Assembly: GCA_024998815.1 (NCBI GenBank)
Contig: JACEUQ010000002.1
Coordinates: forward strand, 442,501 to 506,500
Source of the DNA: Opitutus sp.
Lineage (GTDB): Bacteria > Verrucomicrobiota > Verrucomicrobiia > Opitutales > Opitutaceae
Length of the DNA stretch: 64,000 nt
Direction: 5' to 3'
Numbering within the stretch: the first letter of the stretch is position 1; every line of letters begins with the position of its first letter. The translations under genes and the position numbers were made by a program. The notes under the pieces were generated by a model, which had not been told where the DNA came from, did not search any database, and was given only the letters and a program-made list of their open reading frames with translations. This document shows positions 8,117 through 16,246 of the stretch, in pieces.

Positions 8117-8193
8117 GGACCCTTAGCTCAGTTGGTTAGAGCATTTCCTTGACATGGAAGAGGTCACTGGTTCGAGTCCAGTAGGGTCCACCA
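8117..8193 (+). tRNA. tRNA-Val (anticodon GAC)
   Basis: A complete cloverleaf can be drawn: acceptor GGACCCT pairing with AGGGTCC, D-arm GCTC-AGTTGGTTA-GAGC, anticodon stem-loop with loop TTGACAT (anticodon GAC, valine), variable AGGTC, T-arm ACTGG-TTCGAGT-CCAGT, and an encoded CCA end. The 3' part is the attachment site of the integrated element that follows; the element's copy keeps the tRNA intact. Confidence 0.97.
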
Positions 8194-8194
8194 T
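8164..8194 (+). other. attL, 3' end of tRNA-Val
   Basis: TCACTGGTTCGAGTCCAGTA and the following GGGTCCACCAT form the left copy of the 31-bp direct repeat that bounds the integrated element. It covers the T-arm, acceptor strand and CCA of the tRNA, a usual target for tyrosine integrases. Confidence 0.93.
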
Positions 8195-8255
8195 CTACAT
8201 AAGTAGTTCATTCAGCGAGGCATAGGATTTAAGGCAGGGAGAAAAACACTCCAAC

Positions 8256-8275
8256 TCCTAACAAAACTACTAACA
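8256..8275 (+). other. left copy of a 20-bp repeat inside the element end (candidate integrase arm site)
   Basis: TCCTAACAAAACTACTAACA differs by one base from 14307-14326 at the other end, in the same orientation. It lies 61 bp inside attL. Directly after it, AACAAGTCCCG and CGGGTTTGTT form a small hairpin (8272-8299). The rest of the 200-bp stretch from attL to the first gene at 8389 shows no gene, only a run of seven or more G near 8320. Confidence 0.6.
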
Positions 8276-8388
8276 AGTCCCGCTTTATTCGGGTTTGTTT
8301 CACTAAGTGCTTTTTCGGGGGGGGCCAAACCGTGGTGCGCTCGATTACGGTTTGCCGTTCGGGGAAGCGTATCGACTCGCCAGCGGAA

Positions 8389-8589
8389 TCAAGGGCGCTG
8401 TGAAATCAAAATAACGACTATCACGGCCACGAGGAACCAAATGAACGGCCCCAGCTTCTTCCATGCGGTTTTACGGTCGGCGTGGTCTTTGCTGATGCGA
8501 GCCAGCTCGGCGTGCAACTCGGAGCGGGTTCCGCGCCAGCCACGGGTGGCGTTGAATAGTTTGTGCTCCAGCTCGGAATCGTAGGCCAT
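8389..8589 (-). CDS. small membrane protein of unknown function (satellite)
   Basis: A 66-residue protein that begins MAYDSELEHKLFNATRGWRG, continues with a charged helical part (ELHAELARISKDHADRKTAW), and ends in one transmembrane helix (LGPFIWFLVAVIVVILIS). The N-terminus would be cytoplasmic if the helix acts as a tail anchor. An upstream TTG at 8598 is a possible alternative start. It belongs to the leftward set of small genes at the left end of the element. I recognise no family. Confidence 0.6.
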   Translation of the reverse strand: MAYDSELEHKLFNATRGWRGTRSELHAELARISKDHADRKTAWKKLGPFIWFLVAVIVVILISQRP

Positions 8590-8682
8590 AAAAACCAATC
8601 AATGCCGCCCGCCCTTGCCGTCAATGAACGAAAAAGCCCTGCCAGTTAAGGTCAGGACGCTCGGGGTAGGGTCCGCACGACG

Positions 8683-8920
8683 TTAAACGGATTGGCTCTT
8701 TCCGTTTACATACTCCCCGCTGCACGTCTCGCACTCCCCCGTCCAATTCGGGCTGTAGGGATGAGAGAGCGGATGGAATGAATTTGACTGTTGGCTTACC
8801 TTCTTTGGATCGCTCGACGTCCCACTTGCGCTCGAAATCGGAAAGCTGGGCGATGCTGGTGTCGGGGTTGGCGCCGGATGCTGCATCCCAGAAATGTAGG
8901 ACCGAAAGAATCAGGATCAA
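8683..8920 (-). pseudogene. small gene with CxxC motif, probably frameshifted
   Basis: Two overlapping frames each look coding over only part of the region. The upstream frame reads DTSIAQLSDFERKWDVERSK and follows a hydrophobic start (TTG at 8920). From about 8760 the other frame becomes convincing, reading SPNWTGECETCSGEYVNGK before a stop at 8683. A +1 shift near 8755-8775 would join them into one exported protein of about 79 residues ending in a CxxC motif. It starts soon after the stop of the 155-residue membrane gene. The join is my inference; the upstream frame alone could instead run to 8621. Confidence 0.4.
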
Positions 8921-8977
8921 GATCGGCTTTGAATTTAGCGCCGCATCGACGGTGCCGTATGGTTCAAGAAGCCTAGT

Positions 8978-9445
8978 TTAAGGCGCTTCAACTGTCACCC
9001 AACCATCTTCCTCGGGGCCGTATTTCACGGCCATTTGTGCGCTAACCTTCTCCCATGAATAGCTCTTGTCCTGCGGTCGCACGATAAGAGTAGGGTCAAC
9101 GATTGAAACCCAGTAGTGTTCACGGGGGGCGAGCGGGTCGGCCATACGGGTAAACCTGTGCCTGCCATTGATAACTAGTGCAGAGTTGATGATTACCGCC
9201 TCGCCGCTCGGCTCCTTCACGAGTATTTCATCCTCGGGCTTGAGCCCCGACCAAAGAGAACTTTGGGCATCGTATCTTACGCTGACGACGCGAGAGTTAT
9301 CATGGTATCGCAAGCTGCCCGTAAGGTGGTCGAACTTTGCCTGCCGCACCTGGCCCTTCTCAAAGTAAAAATAGCGTCCGCCAATCGCCCCATAACAGGC
9401 ATAGGCAACGATCATCCCGAGGACTGCGCATAGAACCCGGTTCAT
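8978..9445 (-). CDS. membrane-anchored protein of unknown function (satellite)
   Basis: A 155-residue protein with an N-terminal membrane helix (VLCAVLGMIVAYACYGAIGG) and a soluble, probably periplasmic, beta-rich remainder (GRYFYFEKGQVRQAKFDHLT to the end). Its ATG overlaps the stop of the upstream gene by 4 nt (TCAT at 9442-9445), so the two are translationally coupled. I recognise no domain. Small exported cargo genes at the end of a satellite often modify the host surface or defend against phage, but nothing in the sequence shows this. Confidence 0.65.
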   Translation of the reverse strand: MNRVLCAVLGMIVAYACYGAIGGRYFYFEKGQVRQAKFDHLTGSLRYHDNSRVVSVRYDAQSSLWSGLKPEDEILVKEPSGEAVIINSALVINGRHRFTRMADPLAPREHYWVSIVDPTLIVRPQDKSYSWEKVSAQMAVKYGPEEDGWVTVEAP

Positions 9446-9627
9446 CGGCCGCCTATCCAGTGGCCGCTATCGGCAAGGGTGTAAAACTTTTCATTCCACC
9501 GATCGAGTAGGCGAACTTCACCCTCGTTTAGCCTGATGGTGTAACGCTGCCCGATCCCGAATTGAAGGACCATAAGTGTTAGGACGAACGAGATAAGGAA
9601 TGTGGGAAGAGGCCGCTTCACGCCCAA
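9442..9627 (-). CDS. short membrane protein of unknown function (satellite)
   Basis: About 61 residues with one membrane helix (FLISFVLTLMVLQFGIG) and a 35-residue soluble tail. The start is TTG at 9627 or GTG two codons later; there is no ATG. Its stop overlaps the ATG of the next gene by 4 nt. The two small membrane proteins share a layout (helix, then RY and a beta-rich tail: GQRYTIRLNEGEVRLL against GGRYFYFEKGQVRQAK), so they may be related or act together. Confidence 0.55.
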   Translation of the reverse strand: MGVKRPLPTFLISFVLTLMVLQFGIGQRYTIRLNEGEVRLLDRWNEKFYTLADSGHWIGGR

Positions 9628-9630
9628 CTC

Positions 9631-9828
9631 ATGAAGCGTAACCCCGACTTAATCAAGCCCGTCAACTCCACACGCCGCCTTGACAGCGGCAACTTCGCCG
9701 GCGGGAGTGTGCCCATGATTCACTTGGAGTCATCGGGCGTAGTAACCCGAGCATCGCAGAACGAACACTTGAAACCGCATCGAAAACGGGGAGGGCACTG
9801 CGTGCCCAATTACTACCCCCGCGAGTAG
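9631..9828 (+). CDS. possible small protein, divergent (satellite)
   Basis: A 65-residue frame starting with ATG 3 bp from the start of the leftward membrane gene; the third codon positions are GC-rich like real genes here. It is basic and has one His/Cys-containing tail (HRKRGGHCVPNYYPRE). It precedes the next rightward gene by 26 nt and could form a pair with it. No family is recognised and it may be spurious. If it is not a gene, this is the promoter region between the divergent genes. Confidence 0.35.
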   Translation: MKRNPDLIKPVNSTRRLDSGNFAGGSVPMIHLESSGVVTRASQNEHLKPHRKRGGHCVPNYYPRE

Positions 9829-9854
9829 GTGCGGTTTCTTCTCGTTAAGACCAC

Positions 9855-10082
9855 ATGAAATCCACTGCCAACGCCAAGACTGCCAGCGCCAACGTCACCA
9901 TCTCCGCAACTGGCGCACTCGCCACCGCCATTCAGCACATCGCCACCATGCGCGGTCAGACTCCAGAGGCATACGCCCGTGAAACCCTCGCTCGGTCTGT
10001 CGCCGTGACACTCGATGACGGGGCGCACTTTGAGGAACCCAACGGAATGAACGAAGAGACTTACGCCCGCCTTGTGGCGTAA
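9855..10082 (+). CDS. small protein, possible ribbon-helix-helix type (satellite)
   Basis: A 75-residue protein. The segment VTISATGALATAIQHIATMR followed by TPEAYARETLARSVA resembles the strand-helix-helix pattern of RHH (CopG/Arc) DNA-binding proteins, which would suit a regulator or antitoxin. A C-terminal tail follows (DDGAHFEEPNGMNEETYARL). No toxin partner is recognisable next to it. It is the clearest of the two rightward genes in the element and converges on the terminase gene. Confidence 0.5.
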   Translation: MKSTANAKTASANVTISATGALATAIQHIATMRGQTPEAYARETLARSVAVTLDDGAHFEEPNGMNEETYARLVA

Positions 10083-10140
10083 ACGCCGCTAGGCACCGCC
10101 ACCGGCCCCTTTCCGCCGCCGAGGCCGGGCTGGGGCGGAT

Positions 10141-10599
10141 TTAGGGCGCAGGCAGAGCGTAACACTCCAAAATCGCCGCAATATCGATGCCGGATTCTTG
10201 AACGATGCGAAGGTGATCTTCCCTTGTGGCGGCGGGCTTTGGCGGAGCTTCCACAGTAACTTTGTCCCCGTACTTGGCGGAGTTCTCTTTTCCCGCCAGC
10301 CATTTTATCGCGTCAATTGCGACCCGTGCCGCGTTGGGGTCGAGGTATTCGGGGTCATCCTTGCGAAGGCATGCACGGCGCACGAACTCCTCGATGTCGT
10401 CGGAACGGGAGTCAGCCCTAGCCGCTCGCGCGCGGGCGTAGTGATGCCGCAACGGGTCGCCTTCCCCTGCCTCGGCGAGTCGCTTGAAGAAAGTTCGCCG
10501 GGCAACCCTAGCGGTTTTGCAGGCCTGTGAAACGCTATCGCCTTCTGAGATCAAAGCGCAGGCGGCAAAAAATGGATATTCGGTGTCGGTGGTGGTCAT
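10141..10599 (-). CDS. phage terminase small subunit-like protein
   Basis: A 152-residue protein. The N-terminal half has a helix-turn-helix (SEGDSVSQACKTARVARRTF). The middle and C-terminal parts follow the small terminase pattern: YARARAARADSRSDDIEEF, then YLDPNAARVAIDAIKWLAGK and NSAKYGDKVTVE, in which the NxxRVxIDxxKWLxxK and YGDKV motifs are typical of the Sf6/lambdoid TerS type. TerS chooses which DNA is packaged. No large subunit is present, so the element would need a helper phage motor, as in other satellites. I chose the ATG at 10599 (MTTTDTEYPFF). Similarity to TerS is read from motifs alone. Confidence 0.75.
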   Translation of the reverse strand: MTTTDTEYPFFAACALISEGDSVSQACKTARVARRTFFKRLAEAGEGDPLRHHYARARAARADSRSDDIEEFVRRACLRKDDPEYLDPNAARVAIDAIKWLAGKENSAKYGDKVTVEAPPKPAATREDHLRIVQESGIDIAAILECYALPAP

Positions 10600-10708
10600 A
10601 AGGTGGGTGATAATTGAGGTGTTGAGGGGTCTTGATTCTTGGCGGAGTAGCGTTCTCCCCGATTTAACTCCATATCCTTGTCCGTTATCCGCCCTCCTAT
10701 ATAGTCGG

Positions 10709-10778
10709 GCGGACAAGCGGACAAAGGGTTGAAGCACTCCGCGCGGACAAGAAACGGAGTGCCTGCGGACAGCGGACT
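10709..10778. repeat. iteron-like cluster of GCGGACA
   Basis: Four copies of GCGGACA (10709, 10717, 10743, 10765) and one GCGGACT (10772) lie in 70 bp between the RepA-like gene and terS; a degenerate inverted copy (TTGTCCG) lies near 10677. The position next to rep suggests an origin, and next to terS a packaging site. In the 105 bp between the cluster and the terS start I see nothing else clear. Confidence 0.5.
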
Positions 10779-12297
10779 AAATGGACTGAACCATCATGTA
10801 TTTTCCCCCGCCACTTGCGCGGATGATGTCGTTTAACTTCAGCTCCTTTATTCGGTCGTTTGCCCATGTCTTTTTCTTTCCGCTTACCTCCATGATGCTC
10901 TCGTGAAGCTCTCCGTTGGTCAGTTGGTCGTCCTTCACGAACACGTCTTTGGCTAGCTCGCGCAATTCCTCCACGTCGTGGCCTGCCGATGGGGTGGCAA
11001 CGCTGGCGTGCATATTCAGTTCGTCCGACCATGCAAAGCGCGGGCCGTTCTTCTTCAGGATCGGGGCACCGCGGTTCTTCCCGCTACTGAAAACCACCGT
11101 CACCTCGTTGGAGTCCTTTTCCAGTGTGAGATTAAACGCGGCCTTTCGTGCGAGTTGCTTGCCTAGGTGCCCGCGTGCGCTCTGGTCGGCGTCTCGTCCC
11201 TCGTTGCGGTGAATCACAGCGATGATCGGGCAGTCGGCTTCGCGGGCGTGATCGTGAACCTCACGAACCAACTCTTGCGATTCGCCTAGGTCGTTGGGGT
11301 CATCACACAAGTCGGCAACGCCGTCGATGACGACGAACCAGACCGGCACACCGTGGGCTTTAAGGTCTACCAGCTTGGCCGTGAGCATCGGCCGGATCTC
11401 GCTGGGGGCAGCTCCTACCAGGTTGTAGGGCATAACCCAATCCGGCAGCACCTCCACGCCAGCGCGACGGGCGGCACGGTGGGCAAGGTCGAATTGGTCA
11501 GCCTCCGATTGCTCGGTGTCGAGTAGCAAGACGACGCTGTTTTCTGGGCGCACGCCTGCGACGATGCCGAGGCAGTCGGCTTCATTGGTGACACCCTCGC
11601 CACTGACAACGGCGGCTGCGATTGCTGCGCCGATCCATGCGCTTTTGCCTGCCTTGGCCGGTGCGATTACAGCCGTTATGTCGCCTCGTTTCGCTACCGG
11701 CACGCCTGCGCAGGTGAGCACGGGGGCGGGCCTCGGTGGTGGGGCGGTGAGGTCGAGGCGGCGGGCATCCATTGCGGCCAGCGGATCGCCCTTCATTCCC
11801 GAAGGGAGCGACCGGCGCCACTCGTCCACGCGGCTTAATCCAATCACTTCGAGCGCGCGGAAATATAGCTTCATGCGGTCGGCGTGAAAGTGCATCCCGC
11901 TACCGGTTTCCACGGCGGCGTAGCTCATGGCGATGGATTCCACCTCGTCGAGCGTCTCGGCCTTGCGCAGTTGCGCCCAGGTATGACGGTGCCGGTAATC
12001 GTCAAAGGCTGCGATTTGTAGGCCACGGTTTTCGTTGAGCCGATCGAGGGTGGCGTCGATGAGAACGGCGGCGATGAACCGCGATTCGTGGTCGGCGATC
12101 ATTGCAGGCAGCGCAAACCCGCTGGCCGGTCTTCGCGCCTGCGTGGGCTCCTGATTCGGTGCGTCGTTCGGCAAAGCTGGGCGCGGGGGCGTAACCGACT
12201 CAACCGCAACCGCCCGCGCCTTTGGCGGGCCAAGCGTTGGGGCCTCGCCAGCCTCGGCAAACTCGTAGTCCTCAAAAGCTTCGTGCGGGGCGATCAT
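10777..12297 (-). CDS. RepA-like AAA ATPase / replicative helicase of the element
   Basis: A 506-residue protein. Residues 20-75 are low-complexity and proline-rich. The middle holds a RecA-type ATPase: Walker A APAKAGKSAW (about residue 210), NSVVLLLDTEQSEADQFDLA (AAA_25/RepA-like), Walker B VWFVVIDGVADLCDD, and the VIHRNEGRDADQSARGHLGK segment typical of RepA/DnaB-like ATPases. A C-terminal winged-helix-like part follows (FVKDDQLTNGELHESIMEVS). It probably loads or unwinds at the element's origin. Its ATG overlaps the stop of the 150-residue gene by 4 nt, and its stop lies in the GCGGACA cluster. Confidence 0.8.
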   Translation of the reverse strand: MIAPHEAFEDYEFAEAGEAPTLGPPKARAVAVESVTPPRPALPNDAPNQEPTQARRPASGFALPAMIADHESRFIAAVLIDATLDRLNENRGLQIAAFDDYRHRHTWAQLRKAETLDEVESIAMSYAAVETGSGMHFHADRMKLYFRALEVIGLSRVDEWRRSLPSGMKGDPLAAMDARRLDLTAPPPRPAPVLTCAGVPVAKRGDITAVIAPAKAGKSAWIGAAIAAAVVSGEGVTNEADCLGIVAGVRPENSVVLLLDTEQSEADQFDLAHRAARRAGVEVLPDWVMPYNLVGAAPSEIRPMLTAKLVDLKAHGVPVWFVVIDGVADLCDDPNDLGESQELVREVHDHAREADCPIIAVIHRNEGRDADQSARGHLGKQLARKAAFNLTLEKDSNEVTVVFSSGKNRGAPILKKNGPRFAWSDELNMHASVATPSAGHDVEELRELAKDVFVKDDQLTNGELHESIMEVSGKKKTWANDRIKELKLNDIIRASGGGKYMMVQSI

Positions 12298-12746
12298 TGC
12301 GCCCCCCCTCGTTTTGCAGCTTCGAGCTTTGCGAAATACTCCGCACAGGTTTGCCCCTTGCCGGGACCAGCGCAAATACTCGGGGCCTCGTATCCCGTGC
12401 GTTCATGCCGAAGTGCAGCTACTGCGAATCGCTTCAATCCCGCAAGGGTCACGGGCGCTGTTAAGTATCTCCCTGCCAGCTGCGCGATGACGGGTTCAAA
12501 TAAGCCGATGCCGTAGGTTTTTTTGAAAGCTTGTGATTCAAGACAGAGCGTGAGGTAAGCAGCATCGTCCACGGGCCGACCAGCGGCTTCGTCGGCGTCA
12601 GCCCTCAACCGCCACGCCCTCACGCGCTCAGGGAAGTTGACAGGGCCCGCCGATTTTGCAGGCTTTGAGCCGTTAGCTTTGTCCCGAATCTTAGCCCCGG
12701 TCACGTCAATGACGCAGGGGCTTTTTCGTTTGGTGGATTCAGGCAT
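12294..12746 (-). CDS. protein of unknown function, satellite replication module
   Basis: A 150-residue protein with a basic, flexible N-terminus (about 1-35). A helical body follows (FPERVRAWRLRADADEAAGR, then DAAYLTLCLESQAFKKTYGI), and the tail is basic and contains GPGKGQTCAEYFAKLEAAKR. No family is recognised. It overlaps the AlpA-like gene upstream (8 nt) and the RepA-like gene downstream (4 nt), so the three are coupled and it probably helps replication or its control. Confidence 0.6.
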   Translation of the reverse strand: MPESTKRKSPCVIDVTGAKIRDKANGSKPAKSAGPVNFPERVRAWRLRADADEAAGRPVDDAAYLTLCLESQAFKKTYGIGLFEPVIAQLAGRYLTAPVTLAGLKRFAVAALRHERTGYEAPSICAGPGKGQTCAEYFAKLEAAKRGGAQ

Positions 12747-13014
12747 TGGTCGCGCCCCCTTTCGTTTCCGAGGTAGCGGCGAGCTTAGCGATAAGGTCGC
12801 GTCCGGCTTGGACGGGAATCAGGACCCGGCCACGAATGCCACCGGGCTTGCGCAGCCGATCAAGTCGGATGAGACCGGACGATTCACTGGACAACCACCA
12901 TGACCGGCTCAACCCGAATACGGGATCGCCACCACGGTGCGGGAGGTTCAAAAACTCGGGCTGGGCCGAGGGAGTCGCCGATAGCGCGGCGGGCGCATTG
13001 GTTGTTTTAATCAC
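12739..13014 (-). CDS. AlpA-like DNA-binding protein (possible excisionase)
   Basis: A 91-residue protein with the winged-helix core of AlpA/Xis-like proteins: DPVFGLSRSWWLSSESSGLI, then RLRKPGGIRGRVLIPVQAGR. This pattern is common in small regulators of integrated elements, where they switch on integrase or excision. The start appears to be GTG at 13014 behind a strong purine tract (GGAGGGG), which is rather close to the codon. It leads the coupled replication genes and is 121 bp from the end of the integrase gene. Confidence 0.65.
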   Translation of the reverse strand: MIKTTNAPAALSATPSAQPEFLNLPHRGGDPVFGLSRSWWLSSESSGLIRLDRLRKPGGIRGRVLIPVQAGRDLIAKLAATSETKGGATNA

Positions 13015-13135
13015 CCCCTCCAGCCTAAGAAATCGCTGGGGGGGTCTATCGGTTGCCGGATTTAATTTTAGATGTTTTTTGAAATATAGGACGAACTTTT
13101 AGAATCGCACCGATTCGCCCCCTCGCATGGCCTTG

Positions 13136-14296
13136 TTACAGTGTGAAGTCCTTCAATTTACCAATGGCGGACACCTTAGCCTCGTCGGAAATCTTGGTGT
13201 AAATCTTGGAAACCTCCTCGGAGTCGTGACCGATAATGTCCATGGCCACCTCGGCCGAAACACCGGCCGACTTGAGAGCGCTTGTGGCGTTGCGGCGCAA
13301 GCTGTGGAAAGAAATCTCCGTCTTGGTGCGAGCGCCGTCCCGGCCCTTGCCGGTGGATACGTCCTTCGGTGGTCGCGGTGTGACCAATCCAGCGGAAACG
13401 AGAATTTCGTGAAATTGCGTGGAGAGTCGCGCCACTCCTCCGGGGCCGGTACCGAGCGCGTAGACGTCCGGGTGAATCGGGGCGGTCGGATTATCACCGG
13501 CCGGGAGTGTTTCGAGATAGGTCCGCAGGGGGGCCGCGATTGGGACACTGATTGCACGCTCGGTCTTGGCCGATACCAGCGTGATCTCGTTTTTGATCAA
13601 ATCGACATTTGACCAGCGCAGGGTCGCGCAGTCCATCAGCCGTTGCCCGGTGTATAAACCGAGCAGCAGCATCCCGCGCCACGAACCATTGGCGACGGCG
13701 TAGACGGCCTTGATCTCGACGTCAGTAAGACCACGGCGAGAGCTGGCAGTGTTCTTGCGCTTACCAAAGACCTCCACCTTGGCGGCGGGATTGCCTCCCT
13801 CGGCAAGAAGACCGTCGCGCCATGCGTCGGAGAAAAGCACTCGGATACACTTCAACTTAGAATCAGCGGTTCGCCATGTGGCCTTATCGCGGGAGGCGTC
13901 GTGCCAGGCGTTGACGTGCTCTTTGGTGATGTAAGCGATTGATTGGGTGCCTGCCTCCCCAACGTGAGCGAGGAAACTCTTCACGGCACCGGCGTAGGCG
14001 GCCAACGATGCCGGCTTGCAGTCCTTCTTCTTTATTGCCAGCCACTTGTCGGAATAAGAGGCAAGGGTGTGAAACTGAAGCGGCTTGCCGTGAATAGCCT
14101 CATGTAAATCACTGACAACACGGCGTGCTTGACCCTCGGTAGCTCGCTTTGCCGAGAGGTCTTCCCATGAGGCCAGCATCTTGATGGCTGTTTTTCGGAC
14201 CACCGTTTTAGTGGATCGCTGAACGCGCTTGCCGGTGCCGTCACGGAAGCAGGCAATCCAATACTTAGTGCCGACGTGTCGCTGAAGTGAGCCCAT
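13136..14296 (-). CDS. tyrosine recombinase (integrase)
   Basis: A site-specific integrase of 386 residues. The N-terminal arm-binding part starts MGSLQRHVGTKYWIACFRDG; a SAM-like core-binding domain spans about residues 80-165. The catalytic domain shows GLYTGQRLMDCATLRW (Arg I), a Lys in LVSAKTERAI, SFHSLRRNATS (His-x-x-Arg) and IIGHDSEEVSKIYTK (His and Tyr nucleophile). The ATG at 14296 is preferred; a GTG two codons upstream is possible. It is adjacent to the attR end, as expected for an element integrated in tRNA-Val. A copy of the 20-bp end repeat lies 10 bp upstream of the start, so integrase binding could repress its own gene. Confidence 0.93.
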   Translation of the reverse strand: MGSLQRHVGTKYWIACFRDGTGKRVQRSTKTVVRKTAIKMLASWEDLSAKRATEGQARRVVSDLHEAIHGKPLQFHTLASYSDKWLAIKKKDCKPASLAAYAGAVKSFLAHVGEAGTQSIAYITKEHVNAWHDASRDKATWRTADSKLKCIRVLFSDAWRDGLLAEGGNPAAKVEVFGKRKNTASSRRGLTDVEIKAVYAVANGSWRGMLLLGLYTGQRLMDCATLRWSNVDLIKNEITLVSAKTERAISVPIAAPLRTYLETLPAGDNPTAPIHPDVYALGTGPGGVARLSTQFHEILVSAGLVTPRPPKDVSTGKGRDGARTKTEISFHSLRRNATSALKSAGVSAEVAMDIIGHDSEEVSKIYTKISDEAKVSAIGKLKDFTL

Positions 14297-14306
14297 GCCC
14301 ACAGCA

Positions 14307-14326
14307 TCCTAACAAAAATACTAACA
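14307..14326 (+). other. right copy of the 20-bp element-end repeat (candidate integrase arm site)
   Basis: TCCTAACAAAAATACTAACA, 19 of 20 bases identical and in the same orientation as 8256-8275. It lies 10 bp from the integrase start codon and 74 bp from attR. Confidence 0.6.
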
Positions 14327-14400
14327 CGCAAGCACGTTTTAGCATGTTCCATGTGATGCTTTACCTAGGTAAATAGTTTTTCCCCTAGCGTAAAAACGAA

Positions 14401-14431
14401 TCACTGGTTCGAGTCCAGTAGGGTCCACCAT
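14401..14431 (+). other. attR, duplicated 3' end of tRNA-Val
   Basis: An exact 31-bp copy of 8164-8194. Only the tRNA 3' end is present; there is no second tRNA. Six bases beyond it (TACATA) also match the left side. The insertion sequence begins within 10 bp. Confidence 0.95.
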
Positions 14432-14437
14432 ATACAT

Positions 14438-16246
14438 AGAGCCTGTCCCGAAAGCATAAAAACCTAGCAGTGAACTATTAGCATAAGTTTAATGATGCCT
14501 AAAGAGGGGTAATTCCCTGGTTTTGGTCAAAAAAAAGCCGCTATAATCGGCCATGAAGTCAAAACCCGTATCCGCCACCTCGGCCATTGCCCTGCAACGC
14601 TGGTTGCGTCCGGCGCTAACGCCAGTCGGTGCCAATAAAGATTACGCCGAGTTTCGCCAGCAATTGGAAGGACTCGACGCGTTGTTGCGTGGCAGCCACT
14701 TGGAGACGATGGCGATGGACTTTGCCAAGGCGGGGGCAGGCCAAGCCAGTGTCGCACAACTACGCCAGCGTATGGAGTTTGCGCTCAAAGCGTTACGCTT
14801 TGAAGTGTTGCGGGTGCATTTGGGCAACATATCCTTTCGCGAGCTTTCCCGTAGCATTGCCTCAAGTGATTTACTGGCGGATTTTTGCGGTGTTCGCACG
14901 CTTGAGGGAATCAAGGGGGCGTCCAAAAGTGTGCTGGAGCGGGCCTCGAAGTTTTTCACCGCCGAACAGGTGCGCTGGATGGGGCAAGTGTTGGTGGAGA
15001 TGTGCGGCGAGAAGGATCGCGCCACTGAACTCGGGTTGAGCGCGCCGCTGGACATGGATGTTTGCCTCATCGACGGCACGTGCTTGGAGACCAACATCCA
15101 CTTCCCGGTGGACTGGGTGCTGTTGCGTGATGTGTCCAAGACTTTGCTCAAGGCCATGATTTTAATCCGCCGCGCTGGACTGCTCCACCGTATGCCTGAA
15201 GAGCCGGAGTGCTTTGCCAAGCAGATGAACAAGTTGTGCATGTCAATGACCCACGCAGGCCGCCGCAACGACGCCAAGCGCGCGCGTAAACAGATCCTGC
15301 GCAAGATGAAGACGCTGTTACGCACGATCGGAGAACATGCCCGCCGCCACCGCGACCTGTTGGCGCAGAAGTATAGCCAAACCCATTACAGCCAACGCCA
15401 AACCAAGCGGATAACCACCCGCATCGACGCTATGCTCGGCCAACTGCCCGCCGTCATCAAGCAGGCCCACGAGCGCATCATCGGCGGACGCCCGGTGCCC
15501 AACGACCAAAAGATCCTCAGCGTGCATGAACTTGATGTGAACGTACTGGTTCGCGGCAAAGCAGGGAGCCAAGTCGAGTTTGGCAACTCGTTGCTGTTGA
15601 GCGAGGCGCTCTCCGGTTTAATCACCGACTGGCAACTCTACCAGGGCGCGGCTCCGGCAGAATGGTGCCAACTCGAGGAAAGCCTGGCGCGGCAGAACCG
15701 CTTTGACCTGAGTGCGCCGATTAGCGCGGTCGGCACCGACCGCGGCTTCGCCACCAAAAAAACTTCCGCAATGCTCAAGCAACAAGACGTTTACGATGCG
15801 GTATGCCCGCGTGATCCGCACGCGCTCAAGGAGCGTTTGAGCGAAAAACGCTTCGCCCAATTGCAGCGGCGCCGTTCGGCGACCGAAGCGCGCATTGCGA
15901 TCCTCAAACAACGCCTCGGCGGACGCTTGCGCTGTAAAGGGTTTGCCAACCGCTACCGTTCGGTGGGTTGGAGTGTACTCGGTCACAACCTCTGGCTGGT
16001 GTCACGAATCCTTGCCGAGGAAATAACACTTCCGCTGGCCGCTTAATTCAATTTTCCGGCAAAAATGTGAATAACCCTGGGGCTCGCCCCGGCTTTGCCG
16101 TACCTTACTACCGCGCTTGGGGGCGGGAAAAATCGATTCGGGCCGCCGTTTAACGTCGCTGGGGTGATTCGTGCCACCTCGTTCGCCCGCAATCCCAATG
16201 GACCTCTGCGCACTTTTTAAAAATCCGGAAATTTGGGACAGGCTCT
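14438..16246 (+). mobile_element. insertion sequence with 12-bp terminal inverted repeats
   Basis: AGAGCCTGTCCC at 14438-14449 is matched by GGGACAGGCTCT at 16235-16246, and one transposase fills most of the interior. If the true end is GAGCCTGTCCC, a TA dinucleotide is duplicated on each side. The left flank is the tRNA-Val repeat and the right flank is the start of a tnsB gene, so the IS sits exactly at the junction of two different elements. Confidence 0.85.
14553..16046 (+). CDS. DDE transposase of the insertion sequence
   Basis: A 497-residue transposase that looks intact. Likely catalytic acidic residues lie in DVCLIDGTCLETNIHFP, in ISAVGTDRGFATKK and in RRSATEARIAILKQRLGG, followed by FANRYRSVGWSVLGHNLW, the order expected of an RNase H-fold DDE enzyme. 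A long basic helical insertion (KRARKQILRKMKTLLRTIGE) separates the first two motifs. I cannot place it in an IS family with certainty: the TIR starts like some IS1182 or IS5 members, but the protein does not match those closely, so ISNCY is possible. The gene begins 115 bp inside the left TIR. Confidence 0.85.
   Translation: MKSKPVSATSAIALQRWLRPALTPVGANKDYAEFRQQLEGLDALLRGSHLETMAMDFAKAGAGQASVAQLRQRMEFALKALRFEVLRVHLGNISFRELSRSIASSDLLADFCGVRTLEGIKGASKSVLERASKFFTAEQVRWMGQVLVEMCGEKDRATELGLSAPLDMDVCLIDGTCLETNIHFPVDWVLLRDVSKTLLKAMILIRRAGLLHRMPEEPECFAKQMNKLCMSMTHAGRRNDAKRARKQILRKMKTLLRTIGEHARRHRDLLAQKYSQTHYSQRQTKRITTRIDAMLGQLPAVIKQAHERIIGGRPVPNDQKILSVHELDVNVLVRGKAGSQVEFGNSLLLSEALSGLITDWQLYQGAAPAEWCQLEESLARQNRFDLSAPISAVGTDRGFATKKTSAMLKQQDVYDAVCPRDPHALKERLSEKRFAQLQRRRSATEARIAILKQRLGGRLRCKGFANRYRSVGWSVLGHNLWLVSRILAEEITLPLAA

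Follow-up and report, generated by a model that had tools for sequence, protein, structure and literature searches.

We describe a 6,237-bp element integrated at the tRNA-Val(GAC) gene of an Opitutus genome, which we read, with moderate confidence, as a minimal tRNA-integrated phage satellite whose small terminase subunit (TerS) recruits the large terminase subunit (TerL) of a helper. The DNA analyzed (the window) is a 64-kb stretch of contig C2 (C2:442501-506500) of a 4.24-Mb genome in three contigs (G000); window coordinates refer to this stretch, and the prefixes G, C, and L denote genomes, contigs, and extracted stretches, respectively. Judged from its sequence, the element is integrated in tRNA-Val and combines an integrase, both attachment (att) ends, a replication-type ATPase, and an Sf6-type TerS with no recognized particle genes. 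Confidence is only moderate because this cassette recurs nowhere else and because the arrangement of the AlpA-like gene around related integrases is loose.

The Pfam family Sf6_terminase (PF20901) scores 60 bits on the window TerS against a cut-off of 27 and covers profile positions 9-106 of 106, and the 152-residue protein is homologous to the solved phage Sf6 gp1 over residues 13-121 (Table 1); the Pfam and PHROG scans used a 198-residue long form and the PDB comparison the 152-residue form. By these matches, the open reading frame (ORF) is a true Sf6-family TerS. A single-sequence AlphaFold model was too poor to use (mean predicted local distance difference test score of 47, predicted template modeling score of 0.33). 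An earlier note on this DNA had described an element flanked by a 31-bp att repeat, with an integrase and this TerS and with neither TerL nor structural genes, and each of these points holds: Pfam and PHROG scans of ten element ORFs give no match to families of TerL, portal, capsid, or tail proteins. The TerS has no match at 1e-3 in the phage collection and a match in one of 94 relatives, its own genome; PF20901 is found in 18 of 384 genomes of the class, own included. TerL comes after the Sf6-type TerS in 15 of the 20 class stretches read, and the absence of TerL from the window element is thus not the rule. Eleven of these assignments have support from alignment A1 (eight), from Pfam, or from a start and ATP-binding motif in common, and four (L051, L052, L053, and L055) were made by eye, with L055 giving no Pfam match at 1e-3; among the remaining stretches, L054, L058, and L059 have no TerL beside TerS, and L063 and L068 were left unassigned.

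Boundaries and gene content of the element

The element is bounded by a repeat of the 3' end of tRNA-Val(GAC), whose two copies are exact over 31 bp (8164-8194 and 14401-14431) and agree at 37 of 38 positions when extended to 8201 and 14438; the spacing of these copies gives the size of the element. A 30-bp core of the repeat occurs twice in the whole 4.24-Mb genome, and at up to three mismatches its mean number of occurrences over 100 shuffles of the window is 0. Three features had not been listed in the earlier note, namely repeats in both ends of the element, a cluster of repeats that precedes terS, and a sister element described below. The end repeats are 20-bp motifs, each composed of two CTAACA words spaced 12 bp, and their mirrored placement is the pattern expected of arm-type integrase sites, for which they are candidates.

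The tRNA core is present, with up to two mismatches, in all 13 genus genomes including the own genome, and tRNA-Val(GAC) is found in 11 of the 12 genus relatives, G001 showing only tRNA-Val(CAC). A recN-related sequence lies beside it in nine of these 11, and in eight its side agrees with the window. The sequence of one relative (G012) ends at the tRNA, and in none of the ten others does an ORF of at least 50 residues within 1.5 kb of tRNA-Val(GAC) match the window integrase. The insertion therefore looks specific to its own genome among the genus genomes compared.

The genes of the element lie mostly on the minus strand (Table 1). The AlpA-like regulator named in the earlier note stands as a member of a helix-turn-helix family encoded near related integrases, two members of which (in L150 and L153) match HTH_17/PF12728 (1.1e-7 and 0.0037, respectively); the window ORF itself matches neither Pfam nor PHROG, and its counterpart in the sister element has no Pfam match either. 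The protein called a RepA-like ATPase retains the ATPase part of that name through its AAA_25 and DnaB-like helicase matches, which suggest that it probably acts in replication, and a plasmid-type RepA is unsupported, with no PDB match at 0.01. The CGGAC(A/T) cluster in the interval from the ATPase gene to terS is a candidate replication origin (ori) or packaging site (pac), a motif picked after inspection and hence suggestive only; a 7-mer that reaches its count of 4 occurs in 63 of 2,128 segments of 181 bp and in three of 2,000 shuffles. In two loci with ATPase relatives, L010 and L011, the sequence downstream of the ATPase gene showed no repeats of the CGGAC type, and a conserved origin is therefore not supported. 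As for the capsid-size and helper-interference genes found in many PICIs (phage-inducible chromosomal islands), six element ORFs gave no informative matches in Pfam, PHROG, or PADLOC, and PADLOC returned none of its systems on nine element ORFs. Promoter and terminator scans of the element gave counts below the shuffle means.

Table 1. Features of the window element and its integration site, in window coordinates
Feature	Position	Strand	Evidence and remarks
tRNA-Val(GAC)	8117..8193	+	ARAGORN; integration target; remains intact; in 11 of 12 genus relatives
Left att copy	8164..8201	+	31 bp exact, 37/38 overall
Candidate integrase arm-type site, left	8256..8275	+	19/20 identical to 14307-14326; two CTAACAA words at 12-bp spacing
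Small ORF, 69 residues	8389..8598	-	No significant match; C-terminal hydrophobic segment (by eye)
Small ORF, 99 residues	8621..8920	-	No significant match
ORF, 155 residues	8978..9445	-	No significant match
Small ORF, 61 residues	9442..9627	-	No significant match
Small ORF, 75 residues	9855..10082	+	No family match; homologue in L010 element, 38% over 47 residues, 1e-6
Small terminase TerS, Sf6 gp1 family, 152 residues	10141..10599	-	PF20901 2.7e-16; PHROG_1482 1.7e-20; PDB Sf6 gp1 5e-11
CGGAC(A/T) cluster, six words of which one inverted	10679..10778		In the ATPase-terS interval; candidate ori or pac
AAA_25 RecA-type ATPase, 532 residues	10777..12375	-	PF13481 1.1e-7; PHROG_243 DnaB-like helicase 9.1e-8
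ORF, 150 residues	12294..12746	-	No match in Pfam or PHROG
AlpA/excisionase-like helix-turn-helix protein, 91 residues	12739..13014	-	57.9% identity to sister ORF over 76 residues, 7e-25
Tyrosine integrase, 388 residues	13136..14302	-	Phage_integrase PF00589 5.5e-15; PHROG_1 3e-45
Candidate integrase arm-type site, right	14307..14326	+	19/20 identical to 8256-8275
Right att copy	14401..14438	+	31 bp exact, 37/38 overall

Related elements and recurrence of the cassette

A search of the class genomes with the window integrase at 1e-40 matched 62 of 384 genomes, own included. The best non-self match lies in the own genome, in a sister element (L137, ≈C2:1,507,031-1,513,275) whose integrase is 51-52% identical to that of the window. 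The sister, at tRNA-Leu(CAG), measures 6,204 bp, is enclosed by a 41-bp att repeat, and carries an AlpA-like ORF, a DUF3987 primase (6.1e-39), and a weak Toprim match. That two elements so close in size have related genes for the integrase and the AlpA-like protein yet differ in cargo points to an element family rather than to decay, and the window element is probably a stand-alone member of such a family and not a prophage remnant. A profile of the AlpA-like proteins, built from ten sequences, was run on 24 loci. Among the 22 loci of the window integrase family (window, L137-L156, and L168), 16 have a match 3' of the integrase, seven of which (L139, L141, L142, L147, L148, L154, and L155) lie outside the training set and nine within it; L058 and L011 gave no match, L144 is an incomplete stretch, and L167 falls outside this test.

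Paired att copies bound six of 19 integrase-family loci, at tmRNA or tRNA genes, with spacings of 4.3, 6.2, 6.2, 9.2, 10.4, and 12.2 kb; in the four such elements outside the own genome, neither two head-gene models nor inspection by eye revealed a capsid or portal gene. Gene-by-gene reading covered the window element, the sister, L140, L150, L152, and L153, with ten proteins of the latter four scanned. L152 carries a zinc-primase-like gene and an AAA_25 gene. The 10.4-kb element of L153 (L153:2425-12892; G172, tRNA-Gln) pairs an integrase of the window family and an AlpA-like ORF with TerS and an A1-type TerL, which custom profiles match at 8e-17 and 6e-154, respectively (Pfam gives 0.0098 for TerS and no match for TerL), and has no recognized capsid gene. 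The 12.2-kb element of L140 (L140:2647-14877; G015, tRNA-Val(CAC)) combines a related integrase with a TrwC relaxase (2.6e-83), and its AlpA-like ORF is encoded on the strand opposite to the integrase. L153 is the only one of the 21 other integrase contexts to have TerS, there with TerL; on these gene contents, TerS is not a constant of the element family, the sister having none, L153 TerS with TerL, and L140 a relaxase.

Relatives of the ATPase are found in seven of 94 relatives at 1e-5 and in ten of 384 class genomes at 1e-30, own included in both counts. That of L010, from a genome of the same genus, is 67-68% identical and lies in an integrase element that exits its contig and also holds the homologue of the 75-residue window ORF. 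A second ATPase-relative locus, L011, is bounded by a 16-bp tRNA-Glu repeat with copies 13.1 kb apart and has no recognized TerS or TerL; a TerS suspected there by eye was unsupported, and a 454-residue ORF taken by eye for a tape measure was dropped, PHROGs giving no tape measure. More distant ATPase relatives lie beside TerL, portal, and a TerS-profile match in L014 and beside TerL, portal, capsid, and TerS in L162. Models of TerS, TerL, portal, and capsid have no match in nine of the ten class ATPase contexts, all but L162. In the phage collection, the ATPase matches 12 records, all below 60% identity and none above 80% coverage.

Two of the class stretches with an Sf6-type TerS, L058 and L059 (G152:C4 and G177:C2), belong to another family and lie at tRNA-Tyr; both combine an integrase, TerS, and a Toprim primase with no TerL beside TerS, and L058 also has an ERCC4-type match. 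Both genomes carry TerS-TerL loci elsewhere, and no second att copy was found. An ORF of ≈700 residues in L058 and L072, suspected by eye to be a tape measure, was dropped on only a weak PHROG match to head morphogenesis, and a P27-type TerS in L015, at 18.3 bits below the Pfam cut-off of 24.7, was not counted.

Proposed satellite, alternatives, and known systems

In the satellite life cycle that we envisage, a helper phage would trigger the AlpA-like factor, which together with the integrase would excise the element as a circle. The ATPase would then drive replication of the circle, perhaps starting at the CGGAC(A/T) cluster, and TerS would recognize element DNA and load it onto helper-encoded TerL and procapsid. 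Helper particles would thus carry concatemers of the 6.2-kb circle into a new cell, where re-integration would follow. In support, tailed prophages and head-gene elements coexist with the window element in the own genome (see below). Several observations weigh on the other side. The exact cassette, ATPase and TerS with no TerL, was not seen elsewhere in the contexts searched, and IMG/VR pattern scans with TerS, ATPase, and integrase, which reach close relatives only, returned no relative. The sister lacks TerS. The AlpA-like gene lies on the same strand within 1 kb of the integrase in only seven of the 16 loci, on the opposite strand in six, and farther away in three. Neither Terminase_3 nor an A1-type TerL, the usual class neighbor of an Sf6-type TerS, was found in the own genome, the latter in a search run without a positive control. 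What persists of the satellite proposed in the earlier note is the TerS, the TerL-less cassette, the tRNA integration, and an apparently stand-alone character; the inconstancy of TerS within the family counts against it.

The absence of TerS from the sister, whose integrase and AlpA-like protein are related to those of the window element, would also suit a satellite-like element that moves through the helper's own recognition, as in the PICMIs (phage-inducible chromosomal minimalist islands), and uses TerS to divert or poison phage packaging; the word "terminase" is likewise absent from the main text of the PICMI paper, as far as that text was available (PMC10803314). We nevertheless consider this unlikely, an intact TerS of ordinary length being most simply a packaging factor. 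Decay of a prophage or larger element, in which deletion left int, the ATPase gene, and terS in a now immobile remnant, would account for the uniqueness of the cassette in the contexts searched, for the integrase relative in L153 within an element that has both TerS and TerL, and for the distant ATPase relatives beside TerL and portal (L014) or TerL, portal, and capsid (L162). However, the main ORFs are open and the att ends paired, the sister is nearly equal in size and has no recognized phage structural genes, L153 is itself small and has no recognized capsid gene, and the contexts fetched hold no complete prophage with the window integrase, so that decay, too, has only a low probability in our estimation. 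Transfer of an integrative element by conjugation or natural transformation, with TerS exapted as a DNA-binding regulator, is quite improbable: the relaxase-bearing L140, with its related integrase and AlpA-like ORF at a tRNA-Val(CAC) gene, speaks for such a route, whereas the ten window ORFs scanned match no relaxase family and the Pfam match, far above its cut-off, covers the TerS core.

PICIs are larger than the window element, and the tycheposons of Prochlorococcus are tRNA-integrated elements, some with TerS; the window element is likened to both by description, and tycheposons differ in their cyanobacterial hosts. In the available parts of two accounts (PMC10690885 and PMC12409344), PICIs with TerS, among them the SaPIs (Staphylococcus aureus pathogenicity islands), share with the window element an integrase, an excisionase-type regulator, a replication gene, TerS without TerL, and the absence of structural genes. 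Two features that define PICIs, site-specific integration (integrase and paired att) and TerS without TerL or structural genes, are thus found here, the second within the ten ORFs scanned; no capsid-size or interference gene is recognized, six ORFs giving no informative match. Vibrionaceae PICMIs, as described in the available text (PMC10803314), resemble the window element in their few genes, among them an integrase and a replication gene, and in lacking capsid-remodeling genes; where PICMIs have AlpA (PF05930/PF12728), the window element has an AlpA-like ORF that itself gives no Pfam match, and the primase family DUF3987 is a likeness of the sister only. PICMIs differ in residing at fis rather than at tRNA-Val (window element) or tRNA-Leu (sister), and the window element differs from them in its phylum, its TerS, and an AAA_25 ATPase in place of DUF3987/DUF5906; of the PICMI hallmarks it therefore has the integrase and neither the primase nor the fis site. 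Phage Sf6 gp1 is homologous to the window TerS, with the difference that the window element encodes no TerL partner.

According to the portions available of two papers, known satellites are widespread in Pseudomonadota and Bacillota, with capsid-forming PICIs (cf-PICIs) widely distributed across Bacteria (PMC10690885), and new satellite types have recently come from Cyanobacteria and Actinobacteria, tycheposons being named (PMC11389934). We found no paper on phage satellites, capsid-forming ones included, in Verrucomicrobia/Verrucomicrobiota, in a search that left most subscription papers and preprints outside. If the satellite reading is true, TerS-type phage satellites extend to Verrucomicrobiota, and a single chassis of integrase and AlpA-like gene at tRNA or tmRNA genes would appear to exchange its transfer module between phage-type (TerS, or TerS with TerL) and conjugation-type (relaxase). 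In our view, such a switch of hitch-hiking route would be testable through the sister elements, two of which share one genome.

Candidate helpers in the same genome

Candidate helpers are two tailed Mu-like prophages and five elements that carry TerL, portal, and capsid genes. The Mu-like prophages, one at C2:1208-1240 kb and the other at C1:1555-1585 kb, share 98.7% identity over 19 kb and 88-97% in the remainder, and may have transposed recently. Profiles identify TerS (phrog_426), Portal_Mu, a major head protein, and a tape measure in the C2 copy, the transposase being recognized by eye only. The own genome has eight phrog_2 matches, of which two fall in the Mu-like prophages, five in the head-gene elements, and one on a protein that looks helicase-like by eye; this family also matched in 11 of 14 control genomes, and its matches were accepted only where Pfam or neighboring genes agreed.

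The five head-gene elements comprise a reference (C2:329415-352177; L091/L092) and copies at C1:1242-1275, C2:1575-1608, C1:884-917, and C1:1508-1541 kb, with integrases starting 63-74 bp from tRNA-Ser (four) or tRNA-Glu (one) and a head module ≈89-92% alike among all five. By profile, the reference encodes a primase, Portal_Mu (1.5e-65), a protease, a scaffold, and a major head protein (4e-36), and its 14 scanned ORFs include no tail family; TerL was confirmed on a sister copy (Terminase_6N, 9.7e-20). One head-gene element has an att pair, of 25 bp with copies 29.3 kb apart, whereas the stretches fetched for the other four showed no second copy, so that the outer ends of these four are provisional and their lack of tails only apparent. 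Their gene content is consistent with the architecture of capsid-forming satellites, in five copies within one genome, and resembles that of cf-PICIs in the available text of PMC10690885 (TerL, portal, protease, and capsid with no recognized tails); the window element differs in having only TerS and no TerL, portal, protease, or major capsid gene of its own.

The A2 profile, searched against a small ORF set, matches the TerS of four head-gene elements at 3.8e-7 to 7.2e-7 and that of the fifth, whose start is replaced, at 0.13; Pfam on one copy is weak (0.099). An IMG/VR scan with the TerL of these elements returned 27 loci, many on short contigs, with portal in 26, capsid in 18, and a TerS-profile match in 25 (4.5e-10 to 1.8e-4). 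Three Mu-like tail proteins used as probes had no match in the 27 loci, a weak test for tails. Since the gene before TerL in the head-gene elements distantly resembles the window TerS family, this TerL is a candidate partner for the window TerS and nothing more. A three-tier chain, in which the head-forming elements would use the tails of the Mu-like phages and the TerS of the window element would in turn divert the TerL of the head-forming elements, making it a satellite of satellites, seems to us a long shot. Directly beyond the right att of the window element lies an ORF that looks transposase-like by eye (window 14553-16046; no Pfam match at 1e-3), and another that agrees with it in length and start is found downstream of one of the head-gene elements (C1:1246247-1244754).

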